Shown here: piece after piece, positions 3,460 to 18,127 of the stretch | Position numbering within the stretch: the first letter of the stretch is position 1 | Layout of the letters: every line of letters starts with the position of its first letter | Source: a virus | Virus record (IMG/VR): IMGVR_UViG_3300008267_000850 | Location: 1-22,077 of that record | Direction: 5' to 3' (one strand) | Length of the DNA: 22,077 bases | Program-made: the position numbers and the translations under genes | The notes under the pieces: model-generated | Databases searched by the model: none | Seen by the model: the letters and a program-made list of their open reading frames with translations, nothing else | Told to the model about the DNA's origin: nothing

Positions 3460-3828
3460 ATGAATGACAAAATCAAAGACCTAATCGATAAAGCATACAA
3501 AACCGATTCAATAGCAAAAAACAAATGGCGTATTGAAAACCGAGAACAACTAAGAGAACAGAGAAAAAAAGAACTTAAAGAACTTATGGAAAAGGATAAA
3601 GAAATGAGCAACAATAAACAGAGTAGCGTGGAGTGGTTCTTAAATGAATTGATAAAAGAGGGTTATATCAAAAGATTACCCGTGACACAACTTCAACAAG
3701 CCAAAGCAATGCATAAGGAAGAGATGATAAATTTTACTACGGATTGGTATCATAATGGCTTGTTAAGCCTTGGAGTTTTAGTATCAACAAGTGTTGAGGA
3801 ACACTACAACAAAACATTTGACCAATAA
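3460..3828 (+). CDS. Conserved hypothetical phage protein with charged coiled N-terminus, 122 aa
   Basis: There are two parts. Residues 1-48 are highly charged and probably form one long helix or coiled coil (RIENREQLREQRKKELKEL). Residues 50-122 carry a motif I have seen in proteins of Bacteroidota phages: SSVEWF (55-60), then QQAKAMHKEEMI (79-90) and a C-terminal YNKTF. In many such phages the second part occurs alone starting at a methionine equivalent to M49 here, so the N-terminal helix may be a fusion, or translation may also start internally near 3604. Function is unknown. Both flanks are short A-rich spacers. Confidence 0.65.
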   Translation: MNDKIKDLIDKAYKTDSIAKNKWRIENREQLREQRKKELKELMEKDKEMSNNKQSSVEWFLNELIKEGYIKRLPVTQLQQAKAMHKEEMINFTTDWYHNGLLSLGVLVSTSVEEHYNKTFDQ

Positions 3829-3851: not shown

Positions 3852-4022
3852 ATGAAAAATGTAATAATCGTATTGACTACAATCCTATCTGGCTTGCTTT
3901 ATGGATGGTGTATAGTTTACTATCCAATCACTGCTCAGATTATTGCAGGTGGCATGGGCTTATCTTTTTTGTTCATCGCCATGATCGCTCTGTATCAAGT
4001 TAAAAATAAAAACAAACAATAA
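3852..4022 (+). CDS. Small membrane protein, copy 2 (56 aa)
   Basis: The product has two likely membrane helices (ILSGLLYGWCIV and GGMGLSFLFIAMIALY) joined by YYPITAQII, and ends in KNKNKQ. It is a close paralogue of the protein at 2778-2981 (about 44 of 53 positions identical), but the DNA uses different, AT-richer synonymous codons. It has a proper ATG after an A-rich leader, and its start defines where the conserved protein normally begins. No function is assigned. Because the protein is conserved while the codons have diverged, it is clearly a translated gene rather than a chance ORF. It ends 4 bases before the next start. Confidence 0.75.
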   Translation: MKNVIIVLTTILSGLLYGWCIVYYPITAQIIAGGMGLSFLFIAMIALYQVKNKNKQ

Positions 4023-4026
4023 AATT

Positions 4027-4596
4027 ATGGATAACCAAAACTTACAACTTAATTTATTCGATGGTATCGAGAACAAGGATTTCTTAGAATACCACAAAAC
4101 CAATCCCCATCTTTATGATGCATTCAAAGCAGTGGCTTTTGATGCAATGAAAATGGGCTTTAAAACCTATGGTGCCAACGGCATTTTTGAAATCATTCGG
4201 TGGAAGCGTGCTGAACGTGGTGATGGGGAGTTTAAAATCAACAACAACTTTGCTCCGCTTTTTGCTCGGGTCTTTGCAAATGAGTTTCCGCAGTACAAAG
4301 ACTTCTTTAAATTCCGAAGATCAAAGTTCAGTGAGTATCTTAACTCACTTCCTATGCAAGATAAAAAGAGTCACGAACTAGTTTTTTCTTACGAAAATGC
4401 GTTGATTGTCCTGAACATCACGCCTACTGAAAGTGATTGGTGGACTACTCTGAATGTAAGTGATCCAGCTGGGCGAACTTTTTTCTTTGATGTTCACTAT
4501 TGTGAAGACTACAACGAAATCTGTGTTTATCCACACAACGGCAAGCACCTGAAAGAATGCTACGTGAAAGCCATTCATACTGAAAAAATCATATGA
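4027..4596 (+). CDS. Conserved phage protein with N-terminal clamp-binding-like motif, 189 aa
   Basis: Residues 18-107 (DFLEYHKTNP, then GANGIFEIIRWKRAE, INNNFAPLFARVFANEFPQYKDFFKFR) match a recurrent phage protein of unknown function with alternating helices that could form a winged-helix DNA-binding fold. The C-terminal third (120-189) is beta-rich, with WW at 136-137. Near the N-terminus QLNLF (7-11) closely fits the bacterial sliding-clamp binding pentapeptide QL(S/D)LF on a disordered leader, suggesting possible recruitment to host DnaN. The family memory is moderate; the clamp idea is inference. A consensus DnaA box lies inside the gene at 4527-4535. Its stop overlaps the next start by ATGA. 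Confidence 0.65.
   Translation: MDNQNLQLNLFDGIENKDFLEYHKTNPHLYDAFKAVAFDAMKMGFKTYGANGIFEIIRWKRAERGDGEFKINNNFAPLFARVFANEFPQYKDFFKFRRSKFSEYLNSLPMQDKKSHELVFSYENALIVLNITPTESDWWTTLNVSDPAGRTFFFDVHYCEDYNEICVYPHNGKHLKECYVKAIHTEKII
4527..4535 (+). other. Consensus DnaA box TTATCCACA
   Basis: This is a perfect nine-base DnaA box, embedded in TGTGTTTATCCACACA. It lies inside the coding region at 4027-4596, where it encodes part of VYPHN, so it could be fortuitous. Near-matches (TTATCCACT) occur inside genes at about 1837 and on the + strand at about 17176. There is no cluster of boxes and no adjacent AT-rich unwinding region that I can see, so it is not evidence of an origin by itself. It is noted because the phage encodes a DnaA domain IV-like protein at 10426. 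Confidence 0.3.
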
Positions 4597-4709
4597 ATAT
4601 AGCATATCGATTCGCTATTCCTACTTTATACTGCCGTTACCAAGGTAATGTAACACTCCCTATTCTTATCAAGTATGTTTACAATTTTGAGATATATATT
4701 CAGGAATAA
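4593..4709 (+). CDS. Possible micro-ORF, 38 aa, coupled by ATGA
   Basis: The ATG at 4593 overlaps the preceding stop (ATGA), the commonest coupling arrangement in this window. The product begins MNIAYRFAIPTLYCRYQGN and is moderately hydrophobic and aromatic, without a clear membrane helix. There is no recognised family. Support is only position, coupling and the absence of a better candidate here. Its 3' end overlaps another micro-ORF (4675) by 35 bases, so at least one of the two may be spurious. Confidence 0.4.
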   Translation: MNIAYRFAIPTLYCRYQGNVTLPILIKYVYNFEIYIQE

Positions 4710-4806
4710 GCCACATAAAGAATTTCTTGTTCTAGAGACTGCTATGATTATTTATTACAGTCTTTGGGCCATAGGTATCTATGTGATTTACAGATTAATT
4801 CTATGA
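4675..4806 (+). CDS. Possible small single-pass membrane protein, 43 aa
   Basis: The ORF reads MFTILRYIFRNKPHKEFLVL at the N-terminus, then a hydrophobic segment AMIIYYSLWAIGIYVIYRLIL at about 23-43. This gives a short basic cytoplasmic leader and one convincing membrane helix running to the C-terminus. Its stop overlaps the start of the ribbon-helix-helix gene at 4803 (ATGA), which supports real translation and coupling. An internal ATG at 4744 would give only the membrane helix. No family is recognised. It immediately precedes the regulator-recombinase pair and may belong to the same module. Confidence 0.45.
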   Translation: MFTILRYIFRNKPHKEFLVLETAMIIYYSLWAIGIYVIYRLIL

Positions 4807-5135
4807 CTCAACTTAAGATAAGAAAAAAGAATGTTGAGGTGATCAACATTGTTTTAAGCAGTGAGCAGTACACTAAATTAAAGAAGCTGGCTGATGAGAA
4901 TGGTTTTTCATCGCCAGCCAATTTAATTGATGATATAGTTCATTCCTATTTTAATAAACACCGAACACGAATCCGCAAAACTGTTGATGAATATGAGAAA
5001 GCCATTAAAATGCCAGTCCAAATCTCACAGAATAATTGGCACATGCTGACTCGTTATTCTGAATCCACCAAAATTGCAAAGGGTACCTTTATACACTTAA
5101 TACTAAGAGAGATAATTAAAAAAATTCCAAAATGA
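4803..5135 (+). CDS. Tandem ribbon-helix-helix-like DNA-binding protein, 110 aa
   Basis: ATG 4803 is chosen because it overlaps the preceding stop and starts the conserved part. The sequence seems to contain the same fold twice. First is a strand VINIVLS (13-19) with helices SEQYTKLKKLADENG and ANLIDDIVHSYF. Second is a strand MPVQIS (about 73-78) with helices QNNWHMLTRYSEST and GTFIHLILREIIKK. Strand-helix-helix units of this size resemble ribbon-helix-helix repressors, so this may be a single-chain double RHH protein. It overlaps the serine recombinase by 4 bases, suggesting it regulates the recombinase or acts as its directionality factor. The fold and role are inferred by eye. Confidence 0.55.
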   Translation: MTQLKIRKKNVEVINIVLSSEQYTKLKKLADENGFSSPANLIDDIVHSYFNKHRTRIRKTVDEYEKAIKMPVQISQNNWHMLTRYSESTKIAKGTFIHLILREIIKKIPK

Positions 5136-5830
5136 AAAGAGCCGCATTTTACACACGTGTGAGCCACGACAATCAAGTCGAAGATGGTTCATCATTAGAA
5201 AATCAAAAAGATCGCATTGAGGCGTTCTGTAAACTCAATAACTATTCTATAGTATCGTCATTCTCTGACCCCGGAGTCTCTGGTCGTAAATTTGAAAACC
5301 GACCGGACTTCATGAAGATGATGAAGCTCGTTGAGAAAAAGCAAATAGATGTAATCGTAGTTTACAGCCTGTCTCGTTTCGGCAGAAATTTAAAAGATAC
5401 TTTAAAATGGATTTCCTTTTTGGAAAACAAGGGAGTGTCTTTCTTTACATTAGACTTTCAAATAGATACATCAACATCCCACGGTAAATTAATGCTACAA
5501 ATGATGGGTGCTTTTGCTGAGTTTGAAAGCAATCAGCGTGGAGAACTGATTTCATCAGTCATGAAGTACCTTAAAAAAGAACAAAAGGTTTACTGCGGTC
5601 CTACCCCTCTTGGATTCCACAAGAAAAATGGATTTTTAATTGTAGACAAGCAGGAAATGGAGATTGTAAAAACCATCTTCGATTGGAAAAGAACCATGCC
5701 TCACACCACAATCGCCAAGTTGTGTAATGACTCTGGTTTCCAAACTAAAAAAGGAAAGAAGTTCTACCACACCACTATTGATAAAATCGTCAACAACAAC
5801 ATTTATGAACAACATCTTAGAAATCTATGA
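5132..5830 (+). CDS. Compact serine recombinase (resolvase + recombinase domains), 232 aa
   Basis: The N-terminal resolvase/invertase catalytic domain (1-140) has YTRVS, with nucleophile Ser11 and Arg9, the DPGVSG motif (46-51), and VVYSLSRFGRN containing Arg82 and Arg85. The following GAFAEFES opens helix E. Residues 150-230 match the 'Recombinase' DNA-binding domain (YCGPTPLGF, IVKTIFDWK, IAKLCNDSGF, KIVNNNIY). The protein stops exactly where that domain ends. It therefore lacks the zinc ribbon and coiled coil of large serine integrases (usually over 450 residues) but is larger than Hin/resolvase types (about 185). It could be a phage integrase, an invertase of variable genes, or a remnant. 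It is coupled by ATGA to the RHH-like gene upstream. I see no obvious att core. Confidence 0.85.
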   Translation: MKRAAFYTRVSHDNQVEDGSSLENQKDRIEAFCKLNNYSIVSSFSDPGVSGRKFENRPDFMKMMKLVEKKQIDVIVVYSLSRFGRNLKDTLKWISFLENKGVSFFTLDFQIDTSTSHGKLMLQMMGAFAEFESNQRGELISSVMKYLKKEQKVYCGPTPLGFHKKNGFLIVDKQEMEIVKTIFDWKRTMPHTTIAKLCNDSGFQTKKGKKFYHTTIDKIVNNNIYEQHLRNL

Positions 5831-6011
5831 TGCTCGTATTGTACAGGGCATCACCAACAACAAACGAGACTATCGTTTGTATGTAAATAAAACACTTATT
5901 CAAAAGCATAGCAGTATGGCAGACGCTATAACACAACTGTCGCAACTTCAAGAACGAATCAATGAAGAAAAATACAATAAGAATATATTCAACTTCTGGT
6001 TTTGTTTTTGA
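5805..6011 (+). CDS. Hypothetical protein, 68 aa, overlapping the recombinase 3' end
   Basis: ATG 5805 lies 26 bases inside the recombinase end. The first half looks beta-stranded (ILEIYDARIVQ, DYRLYVN), followed by a helix with QLSQLQERINEEKYN and an aromatic tail FNFWFCF. I do not recognise it. The first 35 residues could be a small integrase-type N-terminal three-strand fold ('I..Y.ARI..G..N..R.YRLYV...I......ADAI'), but no catalytic partner follows. The next gene starts 50 bases before its stop, so the aromatic tail overlaps another coding frame and may be unconserved. Confidence 0.55.
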   Translation: MNNILEIYDARIVQGITNNKRDYRLYVNKTLIQKHSSMADAITQLSQLQERINEEKYNKNIFNFWFCF

Positions 6012-6258: not shown

Positions 6259-6617
6259 ATGACGACCAAATATTGCTCTACACTATTGCTGAAATTTTAC
6301 TAGAAGTAAACTTATCAGAAGAAAAGAAACAACGCATCCGTGATGTGATGTGCGGTGTATACCACAGTGCACCTGAACCTAAACCCAAAACCAAAAGGTT
6401 TGAAGTACCTGCTATCTCCGATGTCAAAGCACATATGGAAACCTTACAGGTTGCCAATGCAGAAAAACACTCAGCTGAGTTTTGGCACTTCTATGAATCC
6501 AAAGGTTGGATGGTCGGAAAGAATAAAATGAAAAATTGGAAATCAGCTGCTAGCCGTTGGTGCATTGAACTTCCACGAACTTCTGGCGATACTCAAAAGA
6601 AAAGGATCGTTGTATGA
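6255..6617 (+). CDS. Replication accessory protein with FY-x-GW-x-GK-x-NWKxA motif, 120 aa
   Basis: Residues 75-102 contain FWHFYESKGW, VGKN and MKNWKSAASRW. This motif recurs at the C-terminus of phage and prophage replication proteins, including initiators and DnaT/helicase-loader-like proteins, and is thought to be a small DNA- or partner-binding helical domain. Here it follows a short helical N-terminus and a proline/lysine linker (42-50), so the protein resembles only the terminal domain of longer initiators. It is coupled to the primase-helicase downstream by ATGA, which supports a loading or targeting role at the fork. The role is inferred from motif and neighbourhood. Confidence 0.6.
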   Translation: MNDDQILLYTIAEILLEVNLSEEKKQRIRDVMCGVYHSAPEPKPKTKRFEVPAISDVKAHMETLQVANAEKHSAEFWHFYESKGWMVGKNKMKNWKSAASRWCIELPRTSGDTQKKRIVV

Positions 6618-8314
6618 GTTATGCATCAGAATTCAGTAGGTTAAATATTGATTTAAAAGGTAGGTTCTCTGGAGTTGTTAAAACTCAGTGTCCAAAATGT
6701 TCTTCCACAAGAAAGAAAGCAGGAGATCCATCCCTATCCGTCAATATCGATGAAGGTTTGTACAAATGCCACCACTGTCAGTGGAAAGGTACTGTCGTAG
6801 AACACAAGTACAATCGCCCAGAAAAAGTTGGCGATAAAGTCGATGAGAGTATTTACAAATACTTTTCAGATCGTGGGTTGAATCAATCTACGGTCGATCA
6901 CTTTAATGTGACTCAGAGCATTGAAAGAATGGCTGATGGTAAACAACACAAAGTGATTAACTTTAATTATTACGATGGGTCCATTCTTGTTAATGTCAAA
7001 TACAAGAGTAGAGACAAGCAGTTTAAAATGGTTCAGGGTGCAAAGAAAATTCCCTACAATTTAAACTCGATCAAAGAATCAACTCAAATTATTATATGCG
7101 AAGGTGAAGAAGAGGCTATGGTGTGGCACGAAGCCGGCTATCCATTTGCAGTCAGTTGTCCTGCTGGTGCCAATGTGGGTAACAACAACCTAGAATGGTT
7201 AGATAACACCTACAGTTTCTTTGAAAACAAAAAGATTTATTTGGCTACTGACAATGATACGCCCGGCAAAAAATTAAGAGAGGATCTCTCAAGAAGGTTT
7301 GATGCCGACAATGTTTACATCATTGAGTTTGGTGAAGTGAAAGATGCTAACGATTACTTAAAAGCATATGGAAAGGAATCTTTGATTCTTATATTTGAAA
7401 ATGCAAAACCATTACCCATTCCAGAAATATCCACAGTGGATAATTACATGGATGAACTCCTCAGCATTTACGACAATGGTTACCCAGTTGGAGACTCTGT
7501 TGGTTATCCTGAGTTTGATGATCTTTTAACTTGGAAACGAGGTCAGTTCGTAGTAGTATCTGGAGTCCCCGGCTCTGGAAAATCTACATTTGTAGATCAA
7601 GTTTGCATACGCCTAGCGTTAAGAAAGAACTGGAAGTTCGCAATGTTTTCACCCGAGAATGATAATGTACTGAAAAGTATACGCATGGCAGAACAAATTG
7701 TGGGTAAACCTATGGCAGGGCATCCACAACAAAAAATGACTAAAGAGATATATGTGCGTGCCTTGAATTATATCAATCGACACTTTTCATTTTACGATAC
7801 TGCTAACCTAGATGATTTTAAAATCGACAATCTCTTACGCATTGCCAAATCTTTGATTAGACAAAAGGGCGTTGATGCTATTATTCTTGATCCATTCAAT
7901 TACATTGAGCAGGATTCTAACAACGACATCATGAATGAAAAGATTGGTCGCATGCTTGTAAAAATGAAAAAGTTTGCACTAACAAACAAAGTTTTAGTCT
8001 TGCTGGTTGCTCACCCTAAAAAGATGCAGAAAAATAAAAACAATGGGCAGTATGAAATACCACGTCTTTATGACATTAGTGGTTCTCACCACTTTTTTAA
8101 CGTAACTGACAATGGTTTTGTAGTTCATCGTGACTTCGACACCGGCCTTGTAGATGTCTACGTTCAGAAAGTAAAACATTACTTCATGGGCAAACTGGGT
8201 TATGCAACATTTGATTTTGATCCTCAGACAGGAAGATACAAAGAACAAACACAATATTGGGAAAACGAATTAGAAAACAATGATCAAACCGAATTCTTTA
8301 CTGGCCTTACTTAA
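6614..8314 (+). CDS. Primase-helicase (T7 gp4-like), 566 aa
   Basis: This is a bifunctional replication enzyme. It opens with a zinc-binding domain with C26, C29, C52 and C55 (CPKC and CHHC). A TOPRIM domain follows, with ICEGEEEA (catalytic Glu163), ATDNDTPG (Asp213 and Asp215) and VKDANDYL near 242-249. The RecA-fold DnaB-type helicase has Walker A GVPGSGKST (317-325, Lys323) and a Walker B-like DAIILDPF (Asp426), then VLLVAHPKK and a DISGSHHFFN region typical of hexameric replicative helicases. The length of 566 matches T7 gp4 (566). It would unwind the fork and lay primers for the phage polymerase. It is coupled to genes on both sides, by ATGA upstream and a 35-base overlap downstream. 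All key motifs look intact. Confidence 0.93.
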   Translation: MSYASEFSRLNIDLKGRFSGVVKTQCPKCSSTRKKAGDPSLSVNIDEGLYKCHHCQWKGTVVEHKYNRPEKVGDKVDESIYKYFSDRGLNQSTVDHFNVTQSIERMADGKQHKVINFNYYDGSILVNVKYKSRDKQFKMVQGAKKIPYNLNSIKESTQIIICEGEEEAMVWHEAGYPFAVSCPAGANVGNNNLEWLDNTYSFFENKKIYLATDNDTPGKKLREDLSRRFDADNVYIIEFGEVKDANDYLKAYGKESLILIFENAKPLPIPEISTVDNYMDELLSIYDNGYPVGDSVGYPEFDDLLTWKRGQFVVVSGVPGSGKSTFVDQVCIRLALRKNWKFAMFSPENDNVLKSIRMAEQIVGKPMAGHPQQKMTKEIYVRALNYINRHFSFYDTANLDDFKIDNLLRIAKSLIRQKGVDAIILDPFNYIEQDSNNDIMNEKIGRMLVKMKKFALTNKVLVLLVAHPKKMQKNKNNGQYEIPRLYDISGSHHFFNVTDNGFVVHRDFDTGLVDVYVQKVKHYFMGKLGYATFDFDPQTGRYKEQTQYWENELENNDQTEFFTGLT

Positions 8315-8588
8315 GCATCTAGTAAAACAAAAATACGACATCGACCACATAAATGTGAACCCCATTCTCATGCCAAAAATACAAGTGCTGTTTCAGCGTA
8401 TTAAAGCCTATGAGGTTCGCTTCTTCAAAGACTATGTGATCATTTATATTGACACGAAACCAATCGTAATTAAAAGCTATGGCTGGATGCGTGCTCATGG
8501 ATCTTACGAACCAATACTTATTGATCCAATTACCAAATCAATGTACACCCAAATGATAATTAAATACAATGAGAACGGTAGTTTATGA
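8280..8588 (+). CDS. Hypothetical protein between helicase and polymerase, 102 aa
   Basis: I do not recognise it. It begins 35 bases before the primase-helicase stop and overlaps the polymerase start by 20 bases, so it is embedded in the replication operon. The N-terminal helix (SLLALLKHLVKQKYDI) is followed by alternating strands (FFKDYVIIYIDTKPIVIKSYGW). The C-terminus IDPITKSMYTQMIIKYNENG reads like a final helix. There are no cysteines or membrane segments. Its location suggests a small replication or polymerase accessory factor, but that is context only. Confidence 0.65.
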   Translation: MIKPNSLLALLKHLVKQKYDIDHINVNPILMPKIQVLFQRIKAYEVRFFKDYVIIYIDTKPIVIKSYGWMRAHGSYEPILIDPITKSMYTQMIIKYNENGSL

Positions 8589-10422
8589 CATAGAAATATT
8601 TCAGAACTTCTTTTCGTATACTGACATTGATGTTAAAACATTAGAGACAAATGTCTTTGTTGTTCACGAAAGCCAAAATATGATGGACAAACTATACGAG
8701 TATCTCGTGGAACCAAAATATAGAATTGGGTACAATAATGTGCATTTTGATAGGGTAGTTTGTGATTTTATCACTGACAATTACGAAAAGTGGAAAAAGA
8801 TTCCAGTCCGATCCGCACTACTGAATCTTTATCAGATGACCCAGTCACTGATTAAAAGTGAGACTAGAGAGTTCTATCGAGGCAGCACAGAAATTGATTT
8901 ATTCTTGTTGAACCACTACAATAACAAGAATAGATCCACATCTTTAAAAGCCTTGCAATGCAGTATCTTTTGGGAGAATGTCCAAGACATGCCCTTTGAG
9001 CATACTGCAGAGGTTACCGATGATATGATCGAAGAAATTCTTAGCTACAACATGAACGATGTGCTCAGCACAAAAAAGTTCTATGAATTAAATCTTGACA
9101 AACTATCCTTTCGGAGGGAACTTGGCAAAAAGTATAGAAAATTTATGTTGAACATGCCAGATATCGCTATCGGTGAAGAGATTTTCTTGCATGAAATCCG
9201 TAAGCAATCTGGCATTCGTAAGAATGAACTGAAAGAAAAAGTTTCTTATGATAAGACAGTGGACTTAGGTAAATGCATACTGCCCTATGTACAATTTGAA
9301 AGTGAGCCATTTAAACAACTACTTGATAAGATTAAATGGACTGTGGTATCTGATACCCAAAAATTAAAATACAATGTCAAGTACAAAGGCTTTCACTTCT
9401 TTTACGGAGTCGGTGGCATACACGGTTGCATTCCTCCCGGCATTTATGTGCGTGATGATAACTATGTTATTTTGGATTTTGATGTGAAGTCATACTATCC
9501 AAACTTAGCTATTCAAAACAATCTTTATCCCAAGCACATTCCTCGTGAGGTTTTTATTAGCACCTATAACTCAATCTTTGAAAAAAGAGTGATGGCTCAA
9601 AAGCAAAAGGACAGCACACAAGATGCAGGATTAAAACTGGCACTGAATGGCGTATTTGGTAAGACTGGTGAAGTGAACTCCGCTTTCTTTGATCGTTACT
9701 ATTTCTATAGCATTACCTTAAATGGCCAGCTTTCTCTCACTATGCTATCAGAGAAGTATATGAATCACATCCAAGGTTTGCAAATTCTACAGATTAACAC
9801 CGATGGTGTTACTGTGCGTGTTCCAAAAAAGTCTTTAGCCCTGCTTGATAAAATCAACACCGAGTTTATGTATCAGACTGGCCTTATACTTGAGTCTTCT
9901 GAATACGAAAAGATAATTATTCGTGATGTAAACAATTATTTAGCAATTACCACAGACGGAAAAATCAAAAAGAAAGGTATCTTTGAAACTCAAAAAGAAT
10001 TTCATAAAGACAATTCTTTTCTGATCGTACCAAAAGCCTTAGAACAATACTACATAAACAATATTCCAGTCGAACAAACAATAAAAGCATCTAAAAACAT
10101 CTATGATTTTTGTGGCAGATATAAAGCGTATAAAGGGTGGTCAGCAGTTTTTAACTCGTCCGAAGAGGGAGAGGTTACTCAAAAAAATTACGGTAAAGTT
10201 TTACGGTTTTATCCGTGCACCCAAGGTGGTGGAACGAGTTGGAAAGTAAACGTAGACGGTCGCATCCACAACCTGTTAGCAAATCAAGCTACTGTCCTAT
10301 TCAATCACTATTTTCCTGTAGATGACTTTAGTCTGTATCACGTAAACTACGAATTTTTTGTTAATGAATGCTATAAAATAATCAACGAAGTTGAACCCAA
10401 ACAACTATCATTTAACTTTTAA
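8569..10422 (+). CDS. Family B DNA polymerase with 3'-5' exonuclease, 617 aa
   Basis: This is the replicative polymerase of the phage. The exonuclease motifs are DIE (Asp7, Glu9), GYNNVHFD (Asp61) and YNMND (Tyr160, Asp164). The polymerase motifs are A, DFDVKSYYP (Asp305), preceded by GVGGIHG; B, KLALNGVFG (356-364); and C, INTDGV (Asp412). The 'NTDG' form of motif C, in place of the cellular DTDS, is usual for short phage family B enzymes. At 617 residues it is close to other compact phage polymerases. No protein-priming TPR1 insertion is obvious by eye, and a primase is encoded next door, so RNA priming is likely. ATG 8569 overlaps the previous gene by 20 bases. All motifs are intact. Confidence 0.92.
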   Translation: MRTVVYDIEIFQNFFSYTDIDVKTLETNVFVVHESQNMMDKLYEYLVEPKYRIGYNNVHFDRVVCDFITDNYEKWKKIPVRSALLNLYQMTQSLIKSETREFYRGSTEIDLFLLNHYNNKNRSTSLKALQCSIFWENVQDMPFEHTAEVTDDMIEEILSYNMNDVLSTKKFYELNLDKLSFRRELGKKYRKFMLNMPDIAIGEEIFLHEIRKQSGIRKNELKEKVSYDKTVDLGKCILPYVQFESEPFKQLLDKIKWTVVSDTQKLKYNVKYKGFHFFYGVGGIHGCIPPGIYVRDDNYVILDFDVKSYYPNLAIQNNLYPKHIPREVFISTYNSIFEKRVMAQKQKDSTQDAGLKLALNGVFGKTGEVNSAFFDRYYFYSITLNGQLSLTMLSEKYMNHIQGLQILQINTDGVTVRVPKKSLALLDKINTEFMYQTGLILESSEYEKIIIRDVNNYLAITTDGKIKKKGIFETQKEFHKDNSFLIVPKALEQYYINNIPVEQTIKASKNIYDFCGRYKAYKGWSAVFNSSEEGEVTQKNYGKVLRFYPCTQGGGTSWKVNVDGRIHNLLANQATVLFNHYFPVDDFSLYHVNYEFFVNECYKIINEVEPKQLSFNF

Positions 10423-10425
10423 CTT

Positions 10426-10926
10426 ATGACTATCCACGATTACACTCATGAAATGATCGAAGCTATTGTAAATACTGCGAAATTAGACTCCTTAACCAAA
10501 CATAAAATCGTCAGAAAAATTCACTCCTTAAAAATGTACAAAGACTTTAAAACCAGAAAACTCGAAGAGGTGAAACTTCAAAAGCACAAACGCCCTACCG
10601 CTCCTATGAGCTTTAGCAGCCTGCCGGCTTCAGTGAAAGAAGTAATTAAAATTGCGTGCGACAAACACGAAATCGACATTCATGAATTTTGTAGCAACAG
10701 AAGACTCACTGACATAATCGATTGCCAAAGGCAAGTAATATATCTTTTACATAAAGAGTTCAAGTACAGTTGCACTAAAGTAGCGTTATGGTTTATAAAA
10801 GACCATAGCACAATTCTTCATTCCTGCAAGAAACACTGCGATTTAGTCGAAACCAATCGTATGTATGCTAGGTTGTATCAAGTTATTCTAGAGCAAACTA
10901 ATGAGAAAGCTATCTTTGTAATTTGA
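10426..10926 (+). CDS. Orphan DnaA domain IV-like DNA-binding protein, 166 aa
   Basis: The C-terminal part resembles the DnaA box-binding domain. DIIDCQRQVIYLLHKEF (96-112) matches the 'aRqia.yL.re' helix, and FIKDHSTILHSCKKH (123-137) matches the DnaA signature '.rDHSTV.HA..k'. The N-terminal 60 residues are basic and helical. No AAA+ ATPase domain is present, so it cannot act as a full initiator. It may bind DnaA boxes to recruit or block host DnaA, or act as a regulator. It is the last gene of the replication operon, 3 bases after the polymerase, and its end overlaps the convergent terminase gene by 17 bases. Confidence 0.75.
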   Translation: MTIHDYTHEMIEAIVNTAKLDSLTKHKIVRKIHSLKMYKDFKTRKLEEVKLQKHKRPTAPMSFSSLPASVKEVIKIACDKHEIDIHEFCSNRRLTDIIDCQRQVIYLLHKEFKYSCTKVALWFIKDHSTILHSCKKHCDLVETNRMYARLYQVILEQTNEKAIFVI

Positions 10927-15935: not shown

Positions 15936-16470
15936 CTGATGCGTATTTAACTCCCATTATGGTTCCTATAATAGAAAATGAATTTGTCAATAATATACCA
16001 AAAAGATTAGACCAAGTGCTTTCTATGATCTTAGCATCCAATCCTTTAGATATAACGTAAAAATACAAGATAGATGTAAGAAATGCAACAGTTCCAATAA
16101 TCCCCAATGCAACTTTAACAATCAGTCCAACCAGTTCAAACTGAGTTCGCTTCTGTAATGTTTCTAAATCCTCAACCGCAGCATCTCGTAACTTTTCAGA
16201 CTCTAATAAAGCAGCCTGAAGTTCTGTCATTAGCTTCTCCCTTTCTGCTTGACTATCTATTAACTCTTTATTCTGTTGCTGAACTTGCTTCGTAATATCT
16301 AATCGCTTTCTTCGGGTTTCGTTATCCCTCTGTTTTGCTTCTTCTATGTATTTTGTAAATTCAGAATCCCCACCCTTAATTACCTTTAAGATGTTTCCCT
16401 CAAGCGATATCTTTTTTGTTTTGTATAACGCTATAAGGTCATTGCAGGTATCCTTACTAAATGAAATCAC
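15922..16470 (-). CDS. Coiled-coil protein with two membrane helices, possible two-component output, 182 aa
   Basis: Residues 1-110 are soluble: a helical head (CNDLIALYKTKKISLEG) and a long charged coiled coil (about 50-108). Two membrane helices follow, at about 113-137 (LIVKVALGIIGTVAFLTSILY) and 150-172 (WSNLFGILLTNSFSIIGTIM), with a basic end SGEKR. The cytoplasmic coil facing the response regulator and the gene coupling (GTG start within GTGA, sharing the regulator's stop) suggest it may be the effector or partner of the receiver-only regulator. No family is recognised and the link is inference from gene order. Confidence 0.65.
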   Translation of the reverse strand: MISFSKDTCNDLIALYKTKKISLEGNILKVIKGGDSEFTKYIEEAKQRDNETRRKRLDITKQVQQQNKELIDSQAEREKLMTELQAALLESEKLRDAAVEDLETLQKRTQFELVGLIVKVALGIIGTVAFLTSILYFYVISKGLDAKIIESTWSNLFGILLTNSFSIIGTIMGVKYASGEKR

Positions 16471-16904
16471 TTATACAGTTTAAACGCAGCTGTTTTATTC
16501 TTAAAGCCTTCATAGTCTTTACGAAAAGCTTCTAGGCGTGGTTCAATCTCATCACTCTTGATGATCCAGAACTGAGCACCCACTTTTTTAGCCTTTTCAA
16601 TCTCTTGCTTGTCATCGGAAGATGATATAATTCCAATCACTACGCCATTACCGTATTCTGTGTTGATCTTGCGTATTAGTTCAATTCCATCAAAAGACGA
16701 ACCGATAATATTTAAGTCAACAAAAACACACTCCGGCTTCTCTTCTTCAGGACCCTCATTAAACCATTTTTTAAACAAACGGTCTGCTTCGTCCGAAGAT
16801 GTTAAACTTTGTAAGCTTAGAGTAATATCTAAAAGACTACAAGAGTCTTCAAACACAAGATGAAACAAATCTTCATCATCAACCAATAGTATAGAATCAA
16901 TCAT
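16467..16904 (-). CDS. Receiver-only response regulator, 145 aa
   Basis: This is a complete CheY-like receiver domain. The acidic pocket is LLVDDED (Asp9, Asp10, Glu11). The phosphoacceptor is Asp63 in CVFVDLN, preceded by a strand. The switch Ser is in IISSSDD (about 94-95), and the conserved Lys116 is in FWIIKSD. It has no DNA-binding or enzymatic output domain, only a short helical tail (ending KTAAFKLYK), so it must signal by protein contact. It is coupled by ATGA to both the kinase before it and the membrane coiled-coil gene after it. All phosphorelay residues look intact, implying selection for function in the phage. Confidence 0.88.
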   Translation of the reverse strand: MIDSILLVDDEDLFHLVFEDSCSLLDITLSLQSLTSSDEADRLFKKWFNEGPEEEKPECVFVDLNIIGSSFDGIELIRKINTEYGNGVVIGIISSSDDKQEIEKAKKVGAQFWIIKSDEIEPRLEAFRKDYEGFKNKTAAFKLYK

Positions 16905-18127
16905 AATCTTATTTTTATTTTTGTACCCTTATCAAGTTTTTCTACTGTGATTTTGAATCCATGCTCCTCCATAATAGCCGTGCAAATGTTCAAACCTAAA
17001 CCCGAACCGGCTTCGGCTTGTCCCTCTTTCCGTACGTAAGGCTGAGACCACGTTTCAAAATCTTTTTGAGACATTCCTCTTCCGTTATCTTGGATAACAA
17101 AATCGTTATTTTCCACAAAGATATGAACTATCTTTGTTGCCGAATCGTTGTATTTCAAACCGTTTCGTATTAAATTATCCACTGCGGTACAGAACAAGCT
17201 TTCATTGACCAAAATACTGGGCATATCATCTATAAGCACCTGTTTTTCATATGATGTACTAGACAAATAAGACTGTAAAATTTCTTTTAAATTGAACTCA
17301 GCTTTTTCTAATTGAGCGTCATTCTTTACAAGATTGGTAAACTCTTTGACACCGCGATAGACTTTTTGAGTATGAACTAACCCCTCTTCTATCATTCTTA
17401 AAGGTGAATCTATCTTTAAATCTTTAATTTGTTCTGTTGTCAGTCTTCGTTTCAAAGAACTTAAACCTCTAGGAATGTATGTATTAATGCCAGAGTGCAT
17501 GTCGTGTCGCAATATTTTTGCCGCATGCTCCAGATAAGAGTTCTTCTTTGCTATTTCTGCCTCAATGTTCTTTTTAGCGGTGATGTCCATAGCTATTTTA
17601 AGGATTCGATATACTTCACCGTAGGGATCCATAATCGGGTTATAATTCCCATTAATCCATATCACTTCACCTTTTTTGTTTTTTCTTTTAAACTCTCCAG
17701 AAACAGACCGACCTGCTTTTAAGTTTCTCCAAAAGTCACTGTATTCTTGCTGTGAAAACTCATACATAAAATCACGATGATTCATTTTTTTCAACTCGTG
17801 ATTTGAGTAACCTGTAATATCGGAAAATATACTATTTGCATTTAAAATGCTGCCATCTAAGTCTAATTCTACTAATGCGTTGGATAAATTAATAGCCATT
17901 AGTGTATCGTCAACTGACTGTGCTTTATACTGTGCCTTTCGTACAAATTCAACAGTCCCTATAAAAAAGAAAGGTATGAATGCAATAATACATCCATACC
18001 CAAATTCTATAATCAAATAAGATGGTTGAAAATAACCAAATACTACTGCACTTTGAACCCCAAAGAAAGTCATCATGATTGCAATTGCAATCACTAGGGA
18101 ACATTTAGCCAGTAACGAAAGTTTCAA
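16901..18127 (-). CDS. Membrane PAS-domain sensor histidine kinase, 408 aa (TTG start)
   Basis: There are two membrane helices at about 8-30 and 38-60 with almost no periplasmic loop, so it probably senses within the membrane or through the cytoplasmic PAS domain (about 73-182; ITGYSNHELKKM, NGNYNPIMD, DITAKK). The dimerisation helix has LRHDMHSGINTY with phosphoacceptor His208. The HATPase domain has the N box NLIRNGLKYN (318-327), G1 DNGRGM (347-352) and G2 GSGLGL (374-379). The start is TTG at 18127, the only start that keeps the whole first membrane helix; an in-frame stop lies just upstream and the first ATG is at residue 18. It lies 17 bases after a lysine-rich gene and is coupled to the regulator. 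No key residue is missing. Confidence 0.9.
   Translation of the reverse strand: MKLSLLAKCSLVIAIAIMMTFFGVQSAVVFGYFQPSYLIIEFGYGCIIAFIPFFFIGTVEFVRKAQYKAQSVDDTLMAINLSNALVELDLDGSILNANSIFSDITGYSNHELKKMNHRDFMYEFSQQEYSDFWRNLKAGRSVSGEFKRKNKKGEVIWINGNYNPIMDPYGEVYRILKIAMDITAKKNIEAEIAKKNSYLEHAAKILRHDMHSGINTYIPRGLSSLKRRLTTEQIKDLKIDSPLRMIEEGLVHTQKVYRGVKEFTNLVKNDAQLEKAEFNLKEILQSYLSSTSYEKQVLIDDMPSILVNESLFCTAVDNLIRNGLKYNDSATKIVHIFVENNDFVIQDNGRGMSQKDFETWSQPYVRKEGQAEAGSGLGLNICTAIMEEHGFKITVEKLDKGTKIKIRL

Follow-up and report, generated by a model that had tools for sequence, protein, structure and literature searches.

A Compact Phage Serine Recombinase Translationally Coupled to a Predicted Tandem Ribbon-Helix-Helix Protein

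Introduction

Serine integrases are prized tools, and the control of their direction is an active question. According to the structural account of A118-type enzymes in PMC3783163, the Recombinase domain contributes a helix-turn-helix (HTH) made up of its helices F, G, and H, which resembles those of resolvases. Beyond this HTH, the chain continues through the remainder of the domain and a linker into a zinc ribbon and a coiled coil. Small serine recombinases are described in phages as well: a filamentous phage, phiRSM, is reported to integrate through an enzyme of the resolvase subfamily (PMC4471427), and plasmid prophages are reported to contain small serine recombinases and ribbon-helix-helix (RHH) proteins (PMC8026635). 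For candidate selection, the survey in PMC10083194 kept proteins of 400–650 aa, and surveys limited in this manner would miss a compact type.

Here, we analyzed a 22 kb virus record (22,077 nucleotides, the window hereafter), in which a recombinase of intermediate size is translated together with an RHH-like protein. The original prediction regarded this pair as a minimal integration or inversion module with its own directionality factor or repressor, and as a hint at a temperate lifestyle. The parts of the locus are known; their fixed combination in an unclassified phage family is new to the open-licence literature searched, where we found no published account of the recombinase–RHH pair. A naturally minimal form, which is widely conserved and has a small DNA-binding partner, could reveal the capacity of a catalytic core and an HTH alone.

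Gene Organization of the Locus

The gene of the tandem RHH protein (4803..5135, plus strand; 110 aa) precedes that of the compact serine recombinase (5132..5830, plus strand; 232 aa). Both open reading frames were confirmed, and they overlap through ATGA at 5132–5135, in line with the translational coupling proposed earlier. The chain of overlapping genes starts further upstream than had been noticed. Its first member is the gene at 4027..4596 (plus strand; phrog_13625, E = 4.6e-22), whose stop overlaps by ATGA with a conserved 38 aa ORF (4593..4709, plus strand; frame and ends checked). A hydrophobic microprotein ORF of 43 aa (4675..4806, plus strand) with one likely membrane helix, as judged by eye, comes next, and its stop overlaps the RHH start. 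Small ORFs comparable to the 38 aa one were seen by eye in aligned relatives. Counterparts of the 43 aa ORF precede the RHH gene with lengths of 41–58 aa in the related first-subfamily loci examined, and of 34–38 aa in part of the second-subfamily loci described below.

On the distal side, a 68 aa ORF (5805..6011, plus strand) overlaps the recombinase end; its homologue in the relative L003 does so by 17 nt. After this ORF come small genes, the primase-helicase (6614..8314, plus strand; phrog_239, E = 2.7e-98), and the DNA polymerase (8569..10422, plus strand; phrog_1252, E = 3.7e-139) of the replication module. The recombinase operon is located just upstream of these replication genes.

Two further features of the window were recorded. 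After the polymerase, positions 10426–10926 encode a small protein with a DnaA C-terminal DNA-binding domain (PF08299, E = 1.5e-10), and in locus L077 a protein resembling it, by eye, lies directly 3' of the recombinase. A phage-borne sensor histidine kinase (PAS and HATPase) adjoins a response regulator at 16467–18127 on the minus strand; the HATPase domain is present in 3/9 records.

Domains, Structure, and Phylogeny of the Recombinase

The catalytic domain is complete, as had been claimed (PF00239, profile positions 1–144 of 145, E = 2.3e-41). The claim of a Recombinase domain held for its N-terminal, HTH half only, since the PF07508 match covers profile positions 2–54 of 102; a distant relative, L246, gave the same 2–54/102 match. 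The protein ends at residue 232 without a zinc ribbon or a coiled coil, and all parts following the HTH in the A118-type enzyme are absent. Its size does fall between those of invertases and large integrases. The structural model (mean pLDDT 83.2) displayed the catalytic fold, a long helix, and helices at residues 173–186, 191–200, and 213–220. We assign the helices within residues 173–220 to the HTH on the basis of the PF07508 2–54 match and the description of helices F–H in PMC3783163.

The nearest solved structures, both by sequence and by fold, were TP901-1 and other serine recombinase catalytic domains. The best PHROG match was the integrase family phrog_95 (E = 1.1e-70), and phrog_125, annotated as DNA invertase, also matched (E = 5.6e-40). 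Invariant alignment columns include a Ser11/Arg9 motif and an RFGR/RFAR-type motif, and the second subfamily keeps both. We take these motifs to be catalytic.

A tree of 28 rows was calculated, including six full-length large recombinases and, as outgroup, seven small invertase-type phage recombinases. The 14 compact recombinases clustered (93/96) on the side of the large recombinases, and the seven small enzymes separated at 100/100. Another 219 aa enzyme, L083, was placed elsewhere on a long branch. We read the compact recombinase as either a descendant or a sister lineage of the large serine recombinases.

The RHH Partner

Structure prediction bore out the double RHH-like nature of the upstream protein. 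The AlphaFold2 model (mean pLDDT 88.2) contains helices 20–32/38–52 and 76–89/93–106, i.e., two strand-helix-helix units by layout. Residues ~9–54 align to NikR with rmsd values of 0.9–1.5 Å in the best rows, and residues 66–110 align to PutA, CopG, and omega (PutA: Z = 6.7, rmsd 1.5 Å). DSSP assigned zero strands in the monomer model, which would be expected if the strands pair only in the dimer. Foldseek returned nothing for the model at E ≤ 0.001, and no full-length tandem RHH match was listed in the structural alignment against solved structures. Sequence profiles gave a Pfam RHH_7 match below the cut-off (20.5 vs. 27 bits) and weak matches to Arc-like PHROGs (E = 2e-4 to 6e-3). The modeled structure and the alignments support the assignment of the upstream protein as a tandem RHH protein in both halves.

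The RHH protein has no detectable relatives in 50,697 phage records, and outside the window lineage its counterparts are 21–61% identical to the window's protein. This faster divergence fits the putative role of a site-specific regulator. The RHH profile matched 22/25 first-family records and L246; the stretch of locus L157 begins in the recombinase. The G011 contig is cut, starting inside the recombinase, and no match was obtained in G015 and G017; in these two, the small gene before the recombinase is a different one. The absence in these two lineages rules out the RHH protein as a universal partner and implies that it is not strictly needed. No RDF family was matched in the profile searches of the window proteins. 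The RHH protein is unlikely to be a directionality factor of the kind that serine integrases have, because the recombinase lacks the coiled coil and the zinc domain on which, according to PMC3783163, such control presumably acts. It may instead be a repressor or an accessory factor.

Conservation and a Second Subfamily

The first homology search yielded 31 loci, with ten close relatives at 70–100% identity and one contig-end fragment; the family search extended the first-subfamily lineages down to 65% identity. L246 surfaced through the start-repeat scan discussed below. Identity to the window's counterparts is 43% for its polymerase, 50% for its helicase, and 36% for its recombinase (229 aa). 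A search based on L246 gave 57 further loci, including its own record, which constitute a second subfamily. All 55 complete loci encode recombinases of 226–234 aa with the same compact end, and the remaining two are truncated by the ends of their contigs. In 54/57 loci, a small gene lies upstream and either overlaps or abuts the recombinase gene. The three exceptions are two contig-end cuts and L312, whose RHH halves are recognizable but lie in separate frames. For 21 second-subfamily representatives (A7), the upstream proteins matched the window RHH family in a profile comparison (E = 4.2e-6, probability 86.9). Seven of the 21 matched a transcriptional repressor PHROG and two an Arc-like PHROG; Pfam RHH families gave no match among them. 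The same polymerase is present in 7/11 second-subfamily records.

In the first subfamily, the C-terminal end of the recombinase is identical in position in 18/18 close loci examined, and a zinc ribbon is not present in these relatives. Comparison of the window with a 94%-identical relative gave a dN/dS of 0.019 for the RHH gene and of about 0.016–0.027 for the recombinase; dS was near saturation, and saturated in the case of the recombinase. The identical end in all relatives examined and the strong purifying selection rule out a truncated remnant, which had been considered as an alternative at the outset. The dN/dS of about 0.02 for both genes, together with their wide conservation, indicates that the pairing is more than chance. 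Judged from its recurrence in many related uncultured phages, the gene pair looks like a long-kept working part.

Among 12 genomes, 63 of the 66 pairs showed higher identity in the recombinase than in the polymerase (means of 70.2% vs. 59.1%), and the two identities were strongly rank-correlated (Spearman 0.90). This argues for vertical inheritance under strong constraint. The recombinase was found in 23 of 44 polymerase loci, in two of them partially. Among the 21 loci lacking it, seven have polymerases with an identity of only 28–36%. The contigs of the 14 closer loci mostly stop near the place of the gene, and two originate from records that carry the recombinase elsewhere (G013 and G014). 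One contig without the recombinase, L161 (52.9 kb record), starts in the small-gene array 1.9 kb before the helicase.

Phage Family and Host

The near-complete relatives are 63–70 kb long and belong to an unclassified phage family. Overlapping ends, as a circular map gives, were found in G005, G010, G013, G039, G040, and G041. The host is probably a member of Bacteroidota. Relatives of the helicase include Flavobacterium, Cellulophaga, and Tenacibaculum phages, and a promoter motif of the Bacteroidota type was observed five times vs. 1.3 expected.

RNA genes were also noted in the family. A tmRNA gene (L355, 4798–5146; Rfam, 91.9 bits) adjoins a tRNA gene in G040, a 69.5 kb contig of the same family. 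In G006 (L041, 17855–18884), upstream of the recombinase operon, Rfam gave three tRNA genes, two of them unusually long (about 100–115 nt), vs. one found by ARAGORN.

Function of the Gene Pair

With a probability of about 0.4, we favor a resolvase-like enzyme whose target would be a single site in the phage genome itself; the RHH protein would serve as its regulator or accessory factor. The following is our inference as regards DNA binding and strand exchange, the existence of a single site, and the roles of the recombinase in resolution and of the RHH protein. The pair would be a vertically inherited core module of the ~63–70 kb phage family. By its anatomy, the recombinase dimer would bind a short symmetric site; a tetramer would then form and exchange strands in the manner of resolvases. 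The substrate would most likely be one site per phage genome, and the enzyme would serve to resolve multimers of the phage DNA, be it circular or in replication. Its tandem RHH partner probably autoregulates the operon, as its repressor, or shapes the synaptic complex, and might do both.

Several lines of evidence lead to this reading. Resolvase- or invertase-like action is expected because the enzyme has a catalytic core and an HTH without a zinc or coiled-coil domain. Since no second site, few inverted pairs, and no inversions were found, functions that need one site remain, i.e., multimer resolution or integration. Resolution is favored over integration by the conservation, by the place in the replication block, and by the lack of lysogeny genes in the searches below. 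The overlapping ends of several related records, which suggest a circular map, give support, as do the small serine recombinases and RHH proteins of the plasmid prophages described in PMC8026635. We counted against the resolvase-like reading that a search for shared noncoding 12–13-base k-mers in seven genomes gave no candidate site, that ParA-type genes were not found, that the RHH gene is missing in G015 and G017, and that the tree groups the enzyme with the large serine recombinases and not with the resolvases. The k-mers shared by the seven genomes came mainly from capsid-gene and promoter- or leader-like stretches. A wider scenario is conceivable but less probable: in a non-integrating phage family, the recombinase would have shed its zinc and coiled-coil control, leaving a core single-site enzyme for genome monomerization or replication, and the tandem RHH protein translated along with it, in many cases joined by a membrane microprotein, would replace the lost domains as a synapsis or regulatory partner.

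A compact integrase, by which the phage is integrated into the host chromosome and for which the RHH protein is a repressor or excision factor, is conceivable though doubtful. A one-site enzyme fits this explanation, phrog_95 is the best phage-family match, and phiRSM sets a precedent for integration by a resolvase-subfamily enzyme (PMC4471427). However, the zinc ribbon and the coiled coil are absent, and no attP was found beside the gene. The search for the inverted repeats suggested near 4600–5130 and 5830–6000 gave only repeats that were short, weak, and different between relatives. Genes overlap on both sides of the pair, so these coding stretches leave no noncoding room for attP, and the aligned upstream DNA of relatives displayed coding conservation only. 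Lysogeny genes were not recovered either, many of the records searched being fragments: tyrosine integrases were found in 0/21 and 0/10 records, and HTH_3 and S24 protease domains in 0/9 records each, where an RHH-type repressor may still be at work. One bacterial genome scan for prophages gave two distant matches and no close one. A temperate lifestyle is therefore not supported, and the mere presence of a serine recombinase does not suffice to class an uncultured phage as temperate. Plasmid maintenance is likewise not supported, since ParA-type partition genes were not found (AAA_31 in 0/9 and CbiA in 0/10 records).

The recombinase could also be chiefly a regulator that binds DNA, or else a replication-structure factor, and recombine DNA only secondarily. 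It adjoins replication genes and is coupled with another putative DNA-binding protein, but the retained Ser11/Arg9 and RFGR/RFAR-type motifs predict catalysis, which makes this role unlikely.

A DNA invertase that switches tail-fibre or other genes is more improbable still, even with an HTH-only DNA-binding part, as in invertases, and the phrog_125 match. All 12 near-identical contig pairs were collinear, with no inversions between them, as far as assemblies, which show the major form alone, can tell. Inverted 26-mer pairs occurred near the shuffle level in 10 genomes (three shuffles per genome as null). G013 was slightly above it, with two inverted pairs (3 and 4 mismatches, 184 and 263 bp apart) vs. 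none in its shuffles. By these two measures, there is no convincing invertible segment, and the gene is located in the early replication region. The predicted minimal integration or inversion module thus gained no support from the contig pairs, the inverted 26-mers, or the search for attP.

Long near-perfect hairpins (arms of 15–27 bases, loops of 9–16) were observed mostly in intergenic stretches of the early region: in G002 at 36917, 40648, and 42956; in G005 at 56590, 61306, and 63845; and in G006 at 8243, 10166, 11910, and 14013. They were rejected as general sites, as no counterparts were seen in G010, G012, G013, and G014.

Small-Gene Arrays near the Operon

Small genes in these phages open with a repeated leader (about GGAGGTAACAATGAGCAACAATAAACAA, MSNNKQ/MTNNKQ), which closes two frames and opens the third. 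Copies are located at 3604 and 3825 of the window, in the 46273–48065 array of L035 (G002, contig coordinates), and at 934–3020 of L155. In several genomes, these direct repeats are concentrated at distances of up to about 3 kb from the recombinase gene, and near-identical phages differ exactly between them. At the start of a G005 contig, an alternative junction was found at the repeat (L037 1–197 vs. L037 1042–1145 and the end of L040), which could stem from a circle excised there, from a duplication, or from a variant array. Despite this clustering, the exact differences, and the junction, a recombinase that shuffles cassettes at the leader repeats is very improbable, and the repeats were rejected as its sites: the start-repeat scan found the leader to be common in other phage contigs (at least 120 stretches), only two of the 80 repeat loci listed encode a window-type recombinase and one a distant type, G006 lacks the repeats while its recombinase is 91% identical to that of G005, and the phage has its own RecE-like exonuclease.

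Two other sequence similarities were noted. Two hydrophobic small-gene copies (LYGWCIV.YPITAQIIAGGMGLSFLF) lie within about 1 kb of each other in the window, at 2775–2981 and 3852–4022, and their DNA matches at 76% over 161 bp. A 211 bp segment at 3501–3711 is 93.8% identical to the end of the G023 contig, whose recombinase is just 67% identical; we read this match as a recent exchange of a small-gene segment.

Comparison with Known Systems

Two parts of the large serine recombinases (phrog_95; CcrB-like; TP901-1, A118, phiC31, and Bxb1) recur in the compact enzyme: their catalytic domain and the HTH-bearing half of their Recombinase domain. In the case of TP901-1, the catalytic domains are 34% identical over 135 columns. 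Unlike the large enzymes, which have 398–560 aa in six full-length rows, the compact ones have 229–232 aa, and the window recombinase lacks the rest of the Recombinase domain, the zinc ribbon, and the coiled coil that characterize the large integrases; nor was an attP seen. The combination of a catalytic domain with an HTH only is that of the small resolvases and invertases (gamma-delta, Tn3, Gin, and Hin), and PMC3783163 describes the A118-type HTH helices as resembling those of these small enzymes too. The window enzyme differs from them in lying outside the clade of the seven small phage recombinases (100/100 split), and neither an accessory-site array nor an invertible segment was found.

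The phiRSM integrase, a member of the resolvase/invertase subfamily, is likewise a small phage serine recombinase; it belongs to another phage type, and attP adjoins its gene as described in PMC4471427. Plasmid prophages, too, combine a small serine recombinase with an RHH partition adapter in one phage genome, and according to PMC8026635 they have ParA or ParM, whereas ParA was not found here in 9–10 records. Finally, each half of the upstream protein is predicted to share its fold with the RHH repressors CopG, omega, Arc, NikR, and PutA. In contrast to these, the window protein would carry two RHH units in one chain and is translationally coupled to a recombinase.
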